DNA from: Stramenopiles sp. TOSAG23-2
Lineage: Eukaryota > Sar
DNA: 20,470 nucleotides
Direction of reading: 5' to 3'
Assembly (NCBI GenBank): GCA_900128395.1
Contig: LT649526.1
Location: 1-20,470, forward strand
Part shown: piece by piece, positions 5,278 through 20,470 of the stretch
How positions within the stretch are numbered: position 1 is the first letter of the stretch
Layout of the letters: every line of letters starts with the position of its first letter
The notes under the pieces: model-generated
Told to the model about the DNA's origin: nothing
What the model saw: the letters and a program-made list of their open reading frames with translations, nothing else
The model's database searches: none
Made by a program: the position numbers and the translations under genes

Positions 5278-5973
5278 GGTAAAAAATGATACCAATGTTT
5301 GTTTCGTATGACGACTGTAATATAACTAATACGGCAGATGTTTTGATTCTTATAATATAATTATTTCAACAATATAATAACCTGTAGATATATATATTAT
5401 TTTTACAAACAACATCATTTTTAATTTGTTGTTTTGTTGCTTGTTGTTGTTGTAAACGATCGTATATTGGATCGTAGGCAATGCTGTGTCCATGGTAAAT
5501 ATATGCTAGCATGGTACTACGCCTGAAATCAATAGCATAGACACAGGGGGTGTTATTTTCAATTTGGCATTTTGGAAATGTTACAAATTCACAAATTCAC
5601 ATCAAACAGGTTTGGTAGCAATAAAAGTTGGATTTATCTATTAATTGTTGTACTACTTTCATCCTCTCAGTGAGATTATAATATACCTTATACCAGATTA
5701 CCTTGTGTGTCTTACGCACTTACCATCATTTACACACATCAAATCAAATAATAATATACAAGCACACAATATACATCAGATGCTTGATACCACAACCGGT
5801 GATGGTATATAGTCGGTCTATAATAAACATAAACATACTGTAATATCTAAAACCTACAACAAAATATATAACAATATAAATACTGTAATATATATAATAC
5901 CTGAATACATACAATTTTACTAATTGATATATAGTAGCAAGGATCATAATATAAGTTGAAAAAAAGTAAAAAC
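5278..5973. other. Divergent intergenic region with a possible small exon
   Basis: This gap separates the 5' ends of the GNAT gene (-) and the CinA-amidase gene (+), so both promoters should lie here; no recognisable core promoter element was seen. It contains a 48-codon minus-strand frame (5366-5512) and a candidate minus-strand intron (5523-5723), described separately. The remainder is AT-rich, with several runs of TATA-like repeats between 5850 and 5920. Confidence 0.5.
5366..5512 (-). CDS. Small frame or leader exon upstream of GNAT gene
   Basis: The 48-residue frame begins MLAYIYHGHSIAYDPIYDRL, then a QQQQATKQQ stretch. The first 35 residues have a less AT-driven composition than nearby intergenic frames. 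A ttgatttcag 3' splice site lies 10 nt upstream of its ATG, and a GTAAGT donor lies on the same strand at 5723-5718, giving a potential 201-nt leader intron. It ends about 90 nt before the GNAT start on the same strand. It could be an upstream ORF in the GNAT leader, a separate micro-gene, or chance. No homology is recognised. Confidence 0.25.
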   Translation of the reverse strand: MLAYIYHGHSIAYDPIYDRLQQQQATKQQIKNDVVCKNNIYIYRLLYC

Positions 5974-8259
5974 ATGAATAATGTTGTTGTTGCTGATGAT
6001 TCTATAACTTATGACCATTTAGTTGAAATATCAACGCGCATTGCAGCAATATTAAAGTCACGAAAAGAAACAATAGCAATAACAGAGTCTGCATGTGGTG
6101 GCTTAATATCATCTGCATTGCTTTCAATCCCAGGCGCATCCTCATTTTATAAAGGTGCAAATGTCGCATATAGCCGTGATTCCCAACGTGCGTATTTTCC
6201 ATCTGATCTCATGGATAAAGTCAAAAATGGTAAAGTTAAATATGGTGCTGAAGAATTTATGTTATTACGTGCTTCAGATGTTGCAAGAAAATTAAATGCA
6301 ACATATGGATTATCAGAAACTGGTCAAACTGGCCCTGTGTTTCTACGTGTAAAGCCACGCGGTCCATTTGATAATGTTACTGGATCATCAGATGGAGAAG
6401 GTGGTATAAAGCGTATGAAGAATGGAAGAAAAGGTCAAGCCCGAGCAGTTGTTGCTTTTTCAACATCATCCTCTTCTTCGAATTATATGATAAAAGTTGC
6501 CAAACGTCTTACTACAACATTTTCAAATAGGCAAAAAAATATGATGTATTTTGCATATAATGCATTAGAAATGGTAGAAAAGCATTTATTGTTATTACAA
6601 AATAATCGAGCGGTACAAGGTAATTATCATTTAAAAAGTGCCGTTGAAGTTGTTGAACTATTAAAACGTAATGAAGTAACACCATTAGAGTTAATTGATT
6701 TGGTTGAAAAACGAATTGATGAGACGGAATATTTAATTCATGCAACACCTATAACTTGTTTTGAGCGTGCACGAGCTAATGCAAGAAAATTAAAGATACC
6801 GGAAAATCCTCCGCCAGGATATTTATATGGACTTCCAGTTCTGATCAAAGATTTAAATGGTGTAGAAGGTGTACGTTTTACGCATGGTAGTTTAATTTTT
6901 AAAGATAGAATTGCAAAACGAACTGGTCCTGTTGCCATGCAAATCGAAGCAATGGGTGGTATTGTCTGTGGAAAGACAAATGTCCCAGAATTTGGTGCAG
7001 GATCGAATAGTTTTAATGAAATTTTTCCTACCACAAAATCACCATATGATACTCGTACAACAGCTGGTGGTAGTAGTGGTGGTGCAGCAGCAGCTGTTAG
7101 TGCATGTCAGGCATGGTTATGCAATGGTAGTGATTTAGGTGGTTCTTTACGTACACCAGCATCATTTTGTGGCATTGTTGGTTTTCGTACATCACCTGGC
7201 ACAGTAGTTACGAAAGGTCCAAGCGGAAAACGAGCAAATTTTTTACATTCAATACAAGGCCCGATGGCTAGAACTGTAAAAGATTTAAGTTTATTTCTAG
7301 ATACAATGACAATGAATCCGACAACCGGAACATTGCCAGATAAAACAATTGGATGGGAAACATATGCAGATTATCCTAAACGACCTGCCAAGTTTTATTC
7401 ATGGCAACATCTAGTTGAAGAAACGTTGTCAACTCCAACTTGGGGAAAACCCCTGAAAATAGCATATTCAACTTTAAATTGCAACATAGCAAAAGAATAT
7501 AATGCAGTCTGTAAAGATGCAGCAAATCGATTTTTTCAAAGCATTCAAAATATTAATGGCAGTAAATTTAATCATGTAAAAGAGCCATTTGATTTAGAGA
7601 TGGCGGAAGATCATTTTTATTTATTACGTGCACATTTATTTGGTGGTAGTTTTGGTAAATTTCCAAAAGATTGGTATGATTTATTGAAACCAGAAATTAA
7701 ATGGAATTCAAATTGTTATCAATTATCAAGTTTTCCAACTAGTAAAAGTGGATTAACCAATGTATTTAACAGAAATGAAGAATTCCATATACAAGTGAAT
7801 CAATTTTTCAATGAATACGATGTATTGATAACACCAGCGTCATTAGATGGTCCATTCAATGCAGATGTAAGATATCCACTGAGAAAATATGGTGATGTAG
7901 ACGAACATTTTGAGTTTTCAAATTATTTAAGTTGGATGATGCCGGCATGTAAAATTTCAACAACTAGTTGCCCAGCCATTGTTGTTCCTGTTGGTAAATT
8001 AAAAGATGGACGCCCCGTCTGTGTACAAATGGTTTGTAAATTGAATAATGATATGAAACTTTTACAAATGGCAGCTCATTTAGAGCGTGTTATTGGATTT
8101 GATGCAAGAATGCCAAATCCAGTGAAAGGTACTTATGATTTAATTGCAGAAGGACCTAAAACAACAGCGGAAGCTGCATTACATTGTGATATCGCATTAA
8201 ACAATTTTTTGGAAAAATATGATACTACTACTGAGGGTAGTAAAAGTGCAAGATTGTGA
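5974..8259 (+). CDS. CinA C-terminal domain fused to amidase-signature enzyme
   Basis: A 761-residue two-domain protein. Residues ~10-205 match the CinA C-terminal (PncC) family, whose bacterial members deamidate nicotinamide mononucleotide: ITESACGG (36-43), PGASSFYKGANVAYS (53-67), and TGQTGP (116-121) in place of the usual TGIAGP. The family's conserved Lys five residues after the YSN-type Tyr appears to be Gln71, so activity is uncertain. The N-terminal domain of full-length CinA is absent. Residues ~215-745 form an amidase-signature hydrolase: Lys292 (VLIKDLN), Ser367 in GGSSGG, and Ser391 in DLGGSLRTP. Their spacing (75 and 24 residues) equals that of fatty acid amide hydrolase, so the Ser-cisSer-Lys triad is intact. 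No signal peptide is seen; probably cytosolic. The frame extends upstream to TTG 5956; ATG 5974 (context aaaaacATG) is chosen. The amidase substrate is unknown; nicotinamide-type amides are only a guess. Confidence 0.9.
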   Translation: MNNVVVADDSITYDHLVEISTRIAAILKSRKETIAITESACGGLISSALLSIPGASSFYKGANVAYSRDSQRAYFPSDLMDKVKNGKVKYGAEEFMLLRASDVARKLNATYGLSETGQTGPVFLRVKPRGPFDNVTGSSDGEGGIKRMKNGRKGQARAVVAFSTSSSSSNYMIKVAKRLTTTFSNRQKNMMYFAYNALEMVEKHLLLLQNNRAVQGNYHLKSAVEVVELLKRNEVTPLELIDLVEKRIDETEYLIHATPITCFERARANARKLKIPENPPPGYLYGLPVLIKDLNGVEGVRFTHGSLIFKDRIAKRTGPVAMQIEAMGGIVCGKTNVPEFGAGSNSFNEIFPTTKSPYDTRTTAGGSSGGAAAAVSACQAWLCNGSDLGGSLRTPASFCGIVGFRTSPGTVVTKGPSGKRANFLHSIQGPMARTVKDLSLFLDTMTMNPTTGTLPDKTIGWETYADYPKRPAKFYSWQHLVEETLSTPTWGKPLKIAYSTLNCNIAKEYNAVCKDAANRFFQSIQNINGSKFNHVKEPFDLEMAEDHFYLLRAHLFGGSFGKFPKDWYDLLKPEIKWNSNCYQLSSFPTSKSGLTNVFNRNEEFHIQVNQFFNEYDVLITPASLDGPFNADVRYPLRKYGDVDEHFEFSNYLSWMMPACKISTTSCPAIVVPVGKLKDGRPVCVQMVCKLNNDMKLLQMAAHLERVIGFDARMPNPVKGTYDLIAEGPKTTAEAALHCDIALNNFLEKYDTTTEGSKSARL

Positions 8260-8484
8260 AAAATTTGTATTAATATTAATAGTAGTATTAGTATACCGGC
8301 CGTACTGTGTAAATAATAATATAGATATTCCAATAGCAACAGCTTAGGAGGTAGTAAAATAATAGATATAATACGAGGCTCGTATAGATATAGATACATT
8401 AAACATATACAAAACACAGAATAATAATAATACATACATACAAATACAATTGAATGCACTGATATTAATATCAAAACAACAAAC
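8260..8484. other. Short gap between co-oriented genes, with hairpin
   Basis: It separates two plus-strand genes. It contains ATACGAG-g-CTCGTAT (arms 8371-8377 and 8379-8385), about 110 nt after the upstream stop codon, followed by an AT-rich leader of the next gene with a tacatacatacaaataca run. The plus-strand start of the GH78 gene is preceded by acaacaaacATG. No operon-like arrangement is expected in a eukaryote. Confidence 0.5.
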
Positions 8485-11064
8485 ATGACGTTGTATAAAA
8501 CAATTAGTATCCTTCTAATTGTTAGTAGTATATTCCTAATATACACGACCAATGCAACTACACCCTCAATATGGTTACCAGAATCAAAACATGCATCATA
8601 TGTTTTTCTTCGACCAAATATATCATTAGCTTCTCACTTTAATTTAAATAAGGAGAAAAACAATGCGGTGATAAGTACATTGAATATCAAAGTATCAGCT
8701 TCACAAGATGTTGTTCCAAACGATGGACAACAACGTTTATTAGCAGCATATCGACTATTTGTAAATTCAATCGAAGTTACACAAGGACCTGGGAGAGGCG
8801 AAGTGCCTACATTTGCAACTACAACCAAAGGAAATGCTATTTATGATGTTGTAACAGTAACATCCAAAGATATCCTTGGCAACGGAGATACGTTAGGACT
8901 GGCATTACAATGTTTTCAAGGCGATGGCGGAACAGATGCATGGGCACAACTGGAAGTAGAGGCATTCAATACCAATAAGGAATCTCTTGGTATTTATCAA
9001 ACAAACGTGAATGATTGGGTTGGATATAATGCAGATGAAATATTTGAAAAAGGTCTACCAGATAAGTGTGGTAGAATTAATGAAAACATAAGAGCTGATA
9101 TTTTTTCAAAAAATGCAATGTGGAAAGAAAATACATTTGTGCCAACTCATTCAAAAGGATGGATGAAAGTAGAGGGTAGAACACCACCAATAGAACCAAT
9201 TGCAAAAGCGACAAAACCATTAGTGGTAAAATCAGGAATCGAGCCAAAATATGTTCATCAAATTGATGGATTGACATATTTCTTTGATTTTGGATATGAA
9301 CAAATGTCTGGGATTCAACTTATGGTTCCTGGAAAAGGTCAAAATTTAGAGGGATTTAAAGTCGAAATTCGTTTAAGCGAAGAAGTAAATGGTACAGATA
9401 AAATTTTGTTTCCTGATACAAGTGGGAATAAATATATATCTAATTGTACGTTGGCAAATAATGGAGAGGATAGTATTATTGAATATCATGAATACCCTGG
9501 ATTATGGCGATATGGCACGTTCAAATTTTTCCCAAAAGATAAATTTATTAAATTTAAAAATGATAATAATATTGAATTTACCGTTAAAAGATGGGCGGTA
9601 CAATATCCATTTAATGATGATGATAGTTCCTTCACTTCAAGTTCAGACATGTTAAACAAAGTGTGGACGTTAATGAAAGATAGCCTGCGCCTTACATCAT
9701 TAGATACATTTACCGATTCAAATACTCGAGAACGATTGCCATATGAAGCCGATGGATATATTACAGCACGATCTAGATGGGTGTTGCAAGAAGAATATGA
9801 ATGGCCAAAACATTCAATCAAACATGTATTGCATAATCCAACATGGCCAACTGAATGGAAACAATTTACAATATTATTAGCACATGAACATTATATGATG
9901 ACTGGAGATAATTCAATAGTTGAAGAATATTTTCATTTATTAAAAAACAATACGATGCATCCATTTATTCACCCTGATACAAATTTAGTTGATTTTACTG
10001 GGAAAATTGTATCACATCGATTTAATTCATTATGCCATTCAACTATTGATTATTTCCCACCAAATGTAACTGATGGGGGCACATCTTGCGATATTGTAGA
10101 TTGGGAAGAATCTTATAGATGTGGATATAATTTTACAACTAAAAATACCGTGGTGAATGCATTTGCTTACAAATCAATGAAAATGCTCTCTGAACTTGCC
10201 ATGTTGGTACCAGCGCTTGTAAACGAAGCGAAACTTTTAAAGACACAAGCAGTAAATACAAAACAAGCTATTTTAAAGTTAATGTACAATAAGAAAACAG
10301 GGTTTTTTTGCGATGGTTTATGCTCGGAGACTGCAAATCCAGGTACATTTCATGCCCAGCATTATCCATTATGGTTAGGTGTAACACCAGATGAAAATGT
10401 AGAGATCGTTCATAAATATTTATCAAGTCAAGGAATGCGTGGTTCTACATACAGTTCACACAGTTTATTATATGGCTTATATGAGCGTACAGCTTCAATT
10501 GACCATGGACAAATAGGCTTGGACCTTATGGTACAATGTTCTAATCAGAGTTGGTGTAATATGATAGAATCTGGTGCAACAACGAGTTGGGAGATGTGGA
10601 ACTTTTATCAAGGCACCCATTCCCATCCTTGGAGTTCAACACCTGCCAGTGTAATTGTTTTTGGTTTATTTGGTCTCAGACCCACCGTACCAGGTTGGAG
10701 TCGATGGCGTGTCAAGATTGCAAGTGGAAATTTGAAATTTGGTAAAATTAAAACCCCTACACCCAACGGACCAATTGTACAAAATTTTACTAAAAATGAT
10801 AATGGCACCTTTATATTTCATTTAATACAAATACCAAAAGGTACTATAGCAGAAGAAATATGTTTGCCTAACTTTCATACATCATTGAAGAAAAAAAATA
10901 TTTTGAACGTTCATAACAATATTGATATGATACATAATGATGTCAATGATGTAGTTTACATGTATGTAAATGGTAAAAAAATAAAAGCTAGATATGAAAA
11001 TTTAAAATATAAAACATATGTATGCATCGATAATATTAAAGAAAGTGGTGTGTTTGTGTTGTAA
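8485..11064 (+). CDS. Secreted GH78 alpha-L-rhamnosidase-like enzyme
   Basis: The 859-residue protein probably removes terminal alpha-L-rhamnose from glycans outside the cell or in the endomembrane system. The N-terminus is a signal peptide: a short basic start, hydrophobic core LLIVSSIFLIYTTNA, cleavage near residue 24. N-terminal beta-rich modules occupy roughly 25-370. The (alpha/alpha)6 catalytic domain carries DSNTRERLPYEAD at 411-423; Asp411, Glu416 and Asp423 keep the 0/+5/+12 spacing of the GH78 Asp-Glu-Asp motif. Glu703 in GATTSWEMW matches the second catalytic acid. The C-terminal beta domain follows (LFGLRPTVPGWSRWRV), a typical GH78 ending. Many N-x-S/T sites fit secretion. The usual GWxGD wording is altered to LPYEADGY, so the sugar specificity may differ; related inverting glycosidases cannot be excluded. 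It is intronless and convergent with TMEM147. Transfer from bacteria or fungi is possible but untested. Confidence 0.9.
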   Translation: MTLYKTISILLIVSSIFLIYTTNATTPSIWLPESKHASYVFLRPNISLASHFNLNKEKNNAVISTLNIKVSASQDVVPNDGQQRLLAAYRLFVNSIEVTQGPGRGEVPTFATTTKGNAIYDVVTVTSKDILGNGDTLGLALQCFQGDGGTDAWAQLEVEAFNTNKESLGIYQTNVNDWVGYNADEIFEKGLPDKCGRINENIRADIFSKNAMWKENTFVPTHSKGWMKVEGRTPPIEPIAKATKPLVVKSGIEPKYVHQIDGLTYFFDFGYEQMSGIQLMVPGKGQNLEGFKVEIRLSEEVNGTDKILFPDTSGNKYISNCTLANNGEDSIIEYHEYPGLWRYGTFKFFPKDKFIKFKNDNNIEFTVKRWAVQYPFNDDDSSFTSSSDMLNKVWTLMKDSLRLTSLDTFTDSNTRERLPYEADGYITARSRWVLQEEYEWPKHSIKHVLHNPTWPTEWKQFTILLAHEHYMMTGDNSIVEEYFHLLKNNTMHPFIHPDTNLVDFTGKIVSHRFNSLCHSTIDYFPPNVTDGGTSCDIVDWEESYRCGYNFTTKNTVVNAFAYKSMKMLSELAMLVPALVNEAKLLKTQAVNTKQAILKLMYNKKTGFFCDGLCSETANPGTFHAQHYPLWLGVTPDENVEIVHKYLSSQGMRGSTYSSHSLLYGLYERTASIDHGQIGLDLMVQCSNQSWCNMIESGATTSWEMWNFYQGTHSHPWSSTPASVIVFGLFGLRPTVPGWSRWRVKIASGNLKFGKIKTPTPNGPIVQNFTKNDNGTFIFHLIQIPKGTIAEEICLPNFHTSLKKKNILNVHNNIDMIHNDVNDVVYMYVNGKKIKARYENLKYKTYVCIDNIKESGVFVL

Positions 11065-18298: not shown

Positions 18299-18771
18299 TC
18301 GACATATATATATATATATAACATATTATAAGGTGGAGATTGAGGTGTGTAATTCTATATGTGTGTATTTTTGTATTTTAAATAAATATGATACTTTTAC
18401 TTTCATTTTTTTTTTTCTGTGGTGATGTGCACATGTGCTGAATTATGATGGGTTTCCAGTTTTCGCTAGATCATCGAAATAATGCTGTGTGCCTTTTATA
18501 TTGTTTTATTAATGCTATGTCCATGTATAGCAAAATACACAGAGCCACATATTAACATATCTTTTGCATATTTGTGCATTTTAATTTGTGTTGTCATCAT
18601 TCATGTTTTGTCATTGAGCTTGTTATTGTGCCAAACTTTCTTCTTCTTCTTCTAATAAATACATATACAGAGTTGCATTTGTCATTGAGCTTGTGCCAAA
18701 CTTTCTTCTTCTATGGAAATTGCAAATGCCAAATTGCCGCAAAACAAATTTTACACTATACGTATATCAAA
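18299..18771. other. Intergenic region with direct repeat and possible uORF
   Basis: It begins with a TATA run (about 18304-18320) after the AT-hook stop. AATAAA-like words near 18378-18385 may signal polyadenylation. A direct repeat at 18607-18650 and 18678-18712 precedes the phosphatase-IDO gene. ATG 18713 opens a 21-codon frame whose TGA (18776-18778) overlaps the main start at 18772. Confidence 0.5.
18607..18712. repeat. Direct repeat, about 71-nt period
   Basis: The words tttgtcattgagcttg and tgccaaactttcttcttct occur at 18607-18650 (with six extra bases, ttattg, between them) and again, contiguous, at 18678-18712. The second copy ends exactly where the possible upstream ORF begins. It looks like a recent local duplication with a small indel. 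Confidence 0.85.
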
Positions 18772-20470
18772 ATGGTGAAAACAAAGTTTTACATACGCCA
18801 AACAAATATTATCTTTCGACATGGAGATCGTTCACCAATAACATCTTTAAAAGATACGCAGTTTTGGGAAAATCAAATTGCTGAGCAAAAAGATGTTATG
18901 CGTGGTTTTAATATTAGAAGAGAAGAAGGTGATGAGAAGCACACCATGGAAGGAAATCCGCCATTCGGTATGTTGACTAAAAAAGGTGTTGCTGGTATAC
19001 AAGCAAAGGGCGAGCAATTTCGTAAAGACATTCTATCTAATGGTGGTACAATTGATTCATCTTATATTTCTTGTCGTTCATCTAATTTTAATAGAACAAT
19101 TGGTTCTGCACAAAATTTTTTAATTGGTCTTGGTATTGGAATCAATGATAAAAATATTGCCATTGATACGCGTTGTTGGAGAAATATGATACCAGATGGG
19201 GATTATCATGAATTTCATGAATTTTTAAGTCAATACCAAACAGAATTGCACGAGTATTCAAAAGACAATTTTGCAGACATACACCAAAACGTTGTTGATA
19301 AATTGTTAAAGTCTGGAATTTGTGGTTTTAAAATTGGACCAGATGGTAATTCAGTTCCAGGTGGAATAAATCTTGATCGGTTATGTGAAATACTAATATG
19401 TTTAAACACCTACAATCAACTTGGCAAAACTGGGATTACAATAGAAGAATATAAATCTATATTATCTATCAAAGAAAAATGGTGTTATGCTTTCAGTAAG
19501 ATTCCAAAAATCATTCAATCTACTATGGCACCATTTCTGTACAATATTATGAATCCAATACGTGAAATTGTTCAAAAAAATGAATATGTCGGTGGAAAAA
19601 TGCAAATTAATATCTTCAGTGGACACGATTCGACGTTATATACGACATTGAATGCATTTAATTTAAGGCCAATTGGTTTAAGCGATAGGGAGAATAAAAA
19701 TATGTCATGGTGTTCAAGTATGTGGCCAACGTACAGCGATACATTGCGTATTGATGTATTAGAAAAAATTGATGTGGAAAATAATCGTGCATCATCATCA
19801 CATCAGCAGCAGCAGTTTTTCCCTATTGTTGAATCAGATTCAGTGGATAATAATAAGAATGATCATAAAACTAAATTTTATGTACGTTTTATATACGGCA
19901 ATGGCAATCATCCAGTTATAACACCATTTGGGGAAAAATATCTAATAATACCGGCGAAGAAATTCAAATTTATTTGGGAAACTAATGATAGTATTGAAGA
20001 ATTTTTTAATCAAACTTCCGTTCATGCCAATGAAACTAATATGATATTTCAAGAATTTTCCATTTGTAAACGAAAAGGATTTTTAGGGTTACCAAGCGGG
20101 GATCCAATATTTAGTTTTCCAAACAATGAATTTAAAATTTGGGATAAACTTGTAGATGAAATACCATCATTGTTAATGCAAAACTCTTCCTATTTCAGGA
20201 AAAAGATTTATGATATGAAAATATTAAACCACACAGAATTAAAGACTAAAGCAGAGCTACGTCGAGGATATTTATTATTATCTGTGTTGGCAAACACATT
20301 TTTATTTGGTTTTGAAGAAGAAGATCCACCATCTAAAATTCCAAAATCAATTGCTATACCATTATGTGGTATTGCAGAAAGATTAAAAATTGTCCCTGCA
20401 TTGATACATGCATCTATTTGTTTATACAATTATAAAAAAGTAAATCAAAATGATGGTTACAATGTTGATA
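18772..20470 (+). CDS. Histidine acid phosphatase-indoleamine 2,3-dioxygenase fusion (3' end outside window)
   Basis: One uninterrupted frame of 566 codons runs off the window. Residues 1-400 are a clade-2 histidine phosphatase (phytase/ACP6-like): RHGDRSP at 16-22 supplies the phosphohistidine nucleophile His17; LTKKGVAGIQAKGEQFR fits the family LTxxGxxQ block; RSSNFNRTIGSA (102-113) fits the RSTxxxRT block; SGHDSTL (283-289) gives the proton-donor HD pair. A QQQQ insert is near 346. The domain finishes with KFYVRFIYGNG. From about residue 424 an IDO-type N-terminal region begins: KRKGFLGLPSGDPIF, LRRGYLLLSVLANTFLFGF, then IPKSIAIPLCGIAERLKIVP and IHASICLYNY, corresponding to the family's LP-x-x-(I/L)AVPYC...LPPILVYA...NW blocks. 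The haem-ligand His lies beyond the window. There is no signal peptide: only 15 residues precede RHG, so it is cytosolic. An internal ATG at 20041 could start a separate IDO, but no stop separates the domains. Confidence 0.85.
   Translation, partial: MVKTKFYIRQTNIIFRHGDRSPITSLKDTQFWENQIAEQKDVMRGFNIRREEGDEKHTMEGNPPFGMLTKKGVAGIQAKGEQFRKDILSNGGTIDSSYISCRSSNFNRTIGSAQNFLIGLGIGINDKNIAIDTRCWRNMIPDGDYHEFHEFLSQYQTELHEYSKDNFADIHQNVVDKLLKSGICGFKIGPDGNSVPGGINLDRLCEILICLNTYNQLGKTGITIEEYKSILSIKEKWCYAFSKIPKIIQSTMAPFLYNIMNPIREIVQKNEYVGGKMQINIFSGHDSTLYTTLNAFNLRPIGLSDRENKNMSWCSSMWPTYSDTLRIDVLEKIDVENNRASSSHQQQQFFPIVESDSVDNNKNDHKTKFYVRFIYGNGNHPVITPFGEKYLIIPAKKFKFIWETNDSIEEFFNQTSVHANETNMIFQEFSICKRKGFLGLPSGDPIFSFPNNEFKIWDKLVDEIPSLLMQNSSYFRKKIYDMKILNHTELKTKAELRRGYLLLSVLANTFLFGFEEEDPPSKIPKSIAIPLCGIAERLKIVPALIHASICLYNYKKVNQNDGYNVD

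Follow-up and report, generated by a model that had tools for sequence, protein, structure and literature searches.

The window, a stretch of 20,470 nucleotides, is the entire contig LT649526.1 of Stramenopiles sp. TOSAG23-2 (assembly GCA_900128395.1, 17.45 Mb in 793 contigs), and its last part, analysed here, carries a single reading frame in which a clade-2 histidine phosphatase domain is followed by the beginning of an indoleamine 2,3-dioxygenase (IDO) domain. A plus-strand frame is free of stops from position 18556 to the contig end, and base composition alone gives a run of 638 stop-free codons a chance of about 6e-24. Positions 18772–20469 encode 566 residues without a stop, starting from the first methionine at 18772, which aligns with the start residues of three related proteins (P0002, P0007 and P0008). 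Only the initial third of the IDO domain falls inside the window, and the part beyond the contig end was read from P0002, a nearly identical and longer protein. The features are as follows.

18772–20469, plus strand: reading frame of the fusion, open for 566 codons up to the contig end and continuing past it (complete at about 883 residues, judging from P0002); from the reading frame scan, translation and P0002 alignment.
18772–19977, plus strand: clade-2 histidine (acid) phosphatase domain, residues 1–402.
18817–18837, plus strand: RHGDRSP catalytic motif, residues 16–22, read from the sequence; R16, H17 and R20 invariant in alignment A2.
19075–19098, plus strand: RSSNFNRT, residues 102–109, read from the sequence; R102 invariant in the four rows of A2.
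19555–19557, plus strand: codon 262 (Pro), where the frames of P0007 and P0008 end; possible intron site in relatives, absent here, placed from the protein ends.
19618–19638, plus strand: SGHDSTL, residues 283–289, read from the sequence; H285 and D286 invariant in alignments A1 and A2.
19978–20043, plus strand: variable interdomain linker, residues 403–424, from the alignment of four pairs.
20044–20469, plus strand: N-terminal part of the IDO domain, residues 425–566.

The sequence-only reading had named a clade-2 histidine phosphatase from the motifs RHGDRSP, RSSNFNRT and SGHDSTL; all three were found, and Pfam places His_Phos_2 (PF00328) at residues 8–120 with 52.2 bits against a cut-off of 23.6. 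The clade-2 signature RHGxRxP, the second arginine and the HD pair are thus all present, with R16, H17, R20, R102, H285 and D286 invariant across A2 (four rows: the window, P0003, P0004 and P0006); P0006 is misaligned in alignment A4, with gaps at R102, H285 and D286, and those sites were judged from A2. We take His17 to be the phospho-acceptor, Arg102 the second phosphate-binding arginine and His285-Asp286 the proton donor pair. Too little space precedes the catalytic motif for a signal peptide. Within this half the Pfam score comes from the N-terminal third alone, the rest being supported by fold comparison: in the P0002 model the phosphatase fold covers the whole half, with 37 of the 50 fold matches listed falling within residues 1–408. 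For both models, the best 50 Foldseek rows were at first all IDO, and the phosphatase matches came from a second fold comparison. PDB profile matches of the phosphatase were weak, at 48.4 bits at best.

The second half is assigned to the IDO family (PF01231) at residues 427–561, with 92.7 bits against a cut-off of 26 over profile positions 3–132 of 412. The domain is complete in P0002 (328.7 bits, positions 3–411 of 412), and comparison of the models predicts an IDO fold for this half; NCBIfam gave no matches for the four proteins searched. Pfam scores both families on the one frame, which meets no stop between 18556 and the contig end, in agreement with the proposal of a stop-free run from the phosphatase into the N-terminal IDO domain. 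Between the two, identity in four pairs falls to 14–23%, as against 39–67% in the phosphatase and 47–71% in the IDO half. When placed by alignment, this linker measures about 22 residues (403–424), within the 20–30 that had been estimated.

A search of about 5.8 billion proteins returned five matches at E <= 1e-5 among 5747 candidates.

P0002: 883 residues, 99% identity across the whole query, both domains.
P0003: 861 residues, 41% identity, both domains.
P0004: 851 residues, 40% identity, both domains.
P0005: 608 residues, 66% identity over 51% of the query, lacking its start and spanning the junction.
P0006: 375 residues, 33% identity over 70% of the query, phosphatase only.

In P0002, P0003 and P0004 Pfam finds both families, the IDO domain being complete and the order phosphatase-IDO, which is the order that was to be looked for in relatives, and P0006 may be a stand-alone phosphatase of the subfamily or a fragment. 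A second search, using the phosphatase-side alignment, listed seven proteins and added the fragments P0007–P0010, of which P0009 crosses the junction and the others are phosphatase pieces; since this search listed neither P0003 nor P0004, the relatives counted are a lower bound. A further protein search scored the 7996 candidates sharing most words, and its length limits kept P0002–P0004 out. Two peptide patterns gave 16 stretches in prokaryotic contigs (genome_contigs) and 57 in viral contigs (viral_contigs), none of them confirmed as kin, and tblastn of plasmids gave no confirmed relative. The in-frame fusion that was originally suspected is borne out by these records: both domains lie on one chain in P0002–P0004, two of which are just 40–41% identical to the window. 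Because these three join both domains, and P0005 and P0009 cross the junction, the evidence speaks against a stop lost between the domains or an intron hidden there, and no relative with two separate genes was seen among the protein records compared. From these comparisons, the fusion looks like a real two-enzyme protein and not a sequencing error.

The ends of the fragments point to a break elsewhere. P0007 and P0008, which come from different sources, both stop directly after Pro262, P0005 and P0009 both start at a methionine aligned with window residue 277, and P0008 and P0009 each lie on a 2087-base contig. An intron at codon 262 in the relatives, lacking in the window gene, is possible and would be the simplest reading of these ends. 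A single gene may lie behind both P0008 and P0009, with an intron likelier than separate genes because the break falls inside the phosphatase.

The fused proteins also share a common origin on the IDO side. In a careful tree, built from 61 IDO domains after long-branched rows and near-copies had been further removed, the four fused IDOs (P0002–P0005) group as a single clade (100/99; recovered in 100% of 200 bootstrap trees), with P0011–P0014 as sister (100/98). A quick tree also recovers the fused clade with support 99 and its sister with 89; it holds 89 of 106 proteins, leaving out the window piece and any row that matched the profile at fewer than 300 positions. Both trees flag P0002 and P0005 for unusual composition, and the quick tree warns of long branches. 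No phosphatase domain was detected in P0011–P0014, P0014 being truncated at its start. The branch with the fusions includes brown algae and Paraphysomonas (names as recorded). Two further joins were seen among the IDO proteins: P0011 (667 residues), of the sister clade, carries a C-terminal KH RNA-binding domain (PF00013, residues 589–656), and P0017 (766 residues) combines IDO with a chlorophyll-binding domain (PF00504) in its source gene model, which may be a false gene join.

Among the non-fused IDOs of the same branch, an anchor-like hydrophobic stretch is present at the N-terminus in 17 of the 20 with a measurable extension. The measure applies a hydropathy threshold (a mean of 1.6 across 19 residues) in place of a trained predictor; of 38 non-fused relatives, 12 were skipped as truncated and 6 were too short, and one of the three failures was narrow (1.59). 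P0002, P0003 and P0004 show no anchor-like stretch by the same test. The phosphatase thus sits where relatives tend to carry an anchor, and we infer that it may have replaced the N-terminal membrane anchor of related IDOs. Anchoring of IDOs in membranes may be frequent among these algae and protists. A second peculiarity of the fusions is the motif KKRKL, which resembles a nuclear import signal: in a survey of 106 proteins, 10 of them without a GTGG region, it stands shortly before GTGG in 4/4 fused IDOs and in 0/92 others, and a looser pattern is found in 6/96 GTGG proteins, namely the four fusions and two others.

The haem histidine and the pocket positions lie past the end of the window and were read from the fused relatives, using IDO1 numbers, with Phe163, Ser263, Ala264 and His346 placed by alignment. 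Equivalents of Phe163, Phe226, Arg231, Ser263, Ala264 and His346, the haem ligand, are kept in all four fused IDOs, so the haem histidine sought beyond the contig end was found in each of P0002–P0005.

The genome contains one IDO match and a kynureninase (473.9 bits), in searches that ignore introns and in an assembly that may be incomplete. Three further histidine phosphatases are all distant, at 36.1, 21.7 and 5.9 bits to the fused-phosphatase profile. Neither TDO nor QPRT gave a match in the genome, the searches having matched 2/14 and 12/14 controls, respectively, and none was seen for formamidase (TIGR03035; controls matched in 7, none above the cut-off) or for 3-HAO, where all controls were equally silent and the result carries no weight. 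The KMO search (PF01494) gave seven matches in the genome, one of them without a locus; no clear KMO was recognised by eye in the longest frames of L007, L008, L009, L011 and L012, where the L011 frame inspected looks like a Nudix protein and is not the matched frame, and L010 shares its open frame with L009; a KMO may still be among the matches. This content hints, weakly, at tryptophan breakdown via kynureninase and not at the synthesis of nicotinamide adenine dinucleotide (NAD). NAD synthesis as the role is therefore less likely, QPRT and TDO having had no match in these searches. In the part of PMC8163842 considered, a tryptophan 2,3-dioxygenase (TDO) family, distinct from IDO, is labelled a 'digestive enzyme' in a table of lifestyle predictions for marine stramenopile (MAST) protists.

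Taken together, we propose that the gene probably encodes a bifunctional enzyme in which the phosphatase and the IDO-type dioxygenase both work. The protein is one chain of about 883 residues in which a short variable linker connects a histidine-phosphatase domain to an entire IDO-family haem dioxygenase, and it would be soluble with both sites active. Its phosphatase would remove phosphate through a phospho-histidine at His17, with Asp286 as acid. Its dioxygenase would use O2 to cleave the indole ring of tryptophan or of a similar indole; its affinity for plain tryptophan is probably low, given the IDO2-like Thr and His in its pocket. In the cell, it would serve tryptophan or indole breakdown that supplies the kynureninase of this genome.

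Several observations weigh against this proposal. All four fused IDOs have Thr at the Ser167 site, His at the Tyr126 site and Tyr at the Phe227 site, and thus depart from the IDO1-type pocket with its distal Ser167 and Tyr126; the same Thr and His are present in the aligned IDO2 chain. The pocket is like that of low-activity IDO2, and the substrate may be other than tryptophan. In the sections of PMC11593294 that bear on this, a distal Thr is tied to a high Km for tryptophan and the IDO2 type is described as poor on plain tryptophan. In the portion of PMC4217691 drawn on here, characterised enzymes from two IDO branches are very slow, while the sole candidates found there for the first kynurenine step are IDOs that belong to these branches and come from some stramenopiles and a haptophyte. 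On the phosphatase side, the fragment P0010 carries V at R102, its end no longer aligning; the top fold match is a flea acid phosphatase pseudoenzyme, so fold alone is no proof of phosphatase activity; residues 19–69, adjoining the catalytic motif, have a predicted local distance difference test (pLDDT) score below 50 in the model used, and a second model gives low confidence over much of this half. The missing pathway genes are a further point, which proves little because the assembly may be incomplete and introns were ignored.

How the two halves would work together, should both be active, can be graded. Two co-regulated but chemically separate activities are the likelier arrangement, though we adopt it tentatively; a phosphatase that frees the indole substrate from a phosphorylated form is possible but doubtful, one acting as a regulatory or targeting part is slightly more doubtful, and a smaller share is left to some other arrangement. 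Considered against every other explanation, substrate feeding, in which the phosphatase strips O-phospho-hydroxyindole or another phosphorylated tryptophan derivative before the IDO half opens the ring, is unlikely. Two complete sets of active-site residues on one chain would suit it, as would an IDO2-type pocket (Thr, His) that is poor on plain tryptophan (PMC11593294, in the part considered). However, among the 39 non-fused IDOs of the alignment, Thr is found in 37 and His in 34, giving no pointer to a fusion-specific substrate; Tyr is found in 34, and since most of them share these residues, the Thr/His/Tyr set is old and not peculiar to the fusion. We know of no phosphorylated indole from such organisms, which also counts against substrate feeding.

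Slightly less likely still is a phosphatase whose target is an inositol phosphate, a partner protein or the IDO half itself, and which, together with KKRKL, directs the enzyme to the nucleus where relatives have an anchor instead. It draws on the anchor-like segments of the related non-fused IDOs, on the restriction of KKRKL to the fusions and on a phosphatase fold in common with the Vip1 inositol pyrophosphate phosphatase, but the anchors were called by a simple hydropathy threshold, and KKRKL, which sits in a loop that covers the pocket of known IDOs, may serve catalysis. A combined version, a relocated and phosphate-gated IDO that exchanged its anchor for a histidine phosphatase, gained a nuclear signal near the pocket, and either takes the phosphate off a phosphorylated indole or senses a signal that carries phosphate before opening the ring, seems to us improbable. 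A chain with one half catalytically dead and serving as scaffold is more improbable again: pseudoenzymes of this phosphatase fold exist (8gdl) and P0010 lacks the second arginine, but P0002–P0004 retain the listed residues at either site with 39–49% (phosphatase) and 47–61% (IDO) identity. Finally, that two separate genes were merged through an overlooked stop, a sequencing error or a chimera of the assembly would be conceivable from the window alone, which ends within the IDO domain; three proteins of other records share the domain order and boundaries, two of them at 40–41% identity, and we reject an artefact as extremely improbable. The bifunctional enzyme is the preferred explanation.

Elsewhere in the window, two other plus-strand frames drew attention. 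Positions 8482–11061 hold a frame of 860 residues that matches a bacterial-type alpha-L-rhamnosidase (PF17389, 98.8 bits; PF17390 at 22 bits, slightly below its cut-off), possibly of bacterial origin in this eukaryote-like genome. Positions 5971–8256 encode a CinA-type domain (PF02464, residues 20–123) and then an amidase (PF01425, residues 241–698) in a single frame of 762 residues; CinA-type proteins are known as nicotinamide mononucleotide deamidases.

Both halves of the fused protein belong to known families, and their pairing was not found in print. The earlier statement that no described protein has this pairing held for the literature searched (titles and abstracts among the matches listed, with most subscription papers and domain-architecture databases outside), but public protein records already hold P0003 and P0004, both annotated there solely as 'indoleamine 2,3-dioxygenase'. 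A join kept at only about 40% identity hints that the breakdown of indole or tryptophan is connected with the removal of phosphate; if both steps are indeed coupled, phosphorylated indoles would be indicated as natural metabolites in these organisms.

Compared with IDO1 and IDO2 (PF01231), the fusion has an N-terminal phosphatase domain that they do not, and its pocket Thr, His and Tyr are as in IDO2 and unlike IDO1. With the clade-2 histidine acid phosphatases (bacterial enzymes, prostatic acid phosphatase, ACP6) it has in common RHGxRxP, the second arginine, the HD pair and the predicted fold, and it differs by its dioxygenase partner and by having no space for a signal peptide. PPIP5K/Vip1, a kinase with a C-terminal histidine-phosphatase domain, likewise places this fold in a bifunctional chain, but with a kinase partner, in reversed order and at distant sequence; the 5.9-bit phosphatase of this genome, at C517, is likely a PPIP5K/Vip1-type gene by reading of its sequence. 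Soluble epoxide hydrolase, whose phosphatase has the HAD fold, is no more than an analogy in layout, having an N-terminal lipid phosphatase ahead of an unrelated enzyme that is not an IDO. As far as the text of PMC10983002 considered here goes, cells in which this hydrolase is inhibited or depleted have less kynurenine and altered levels of IDO1, the inhibitor hitting the hydrolase and not the phosphatase.
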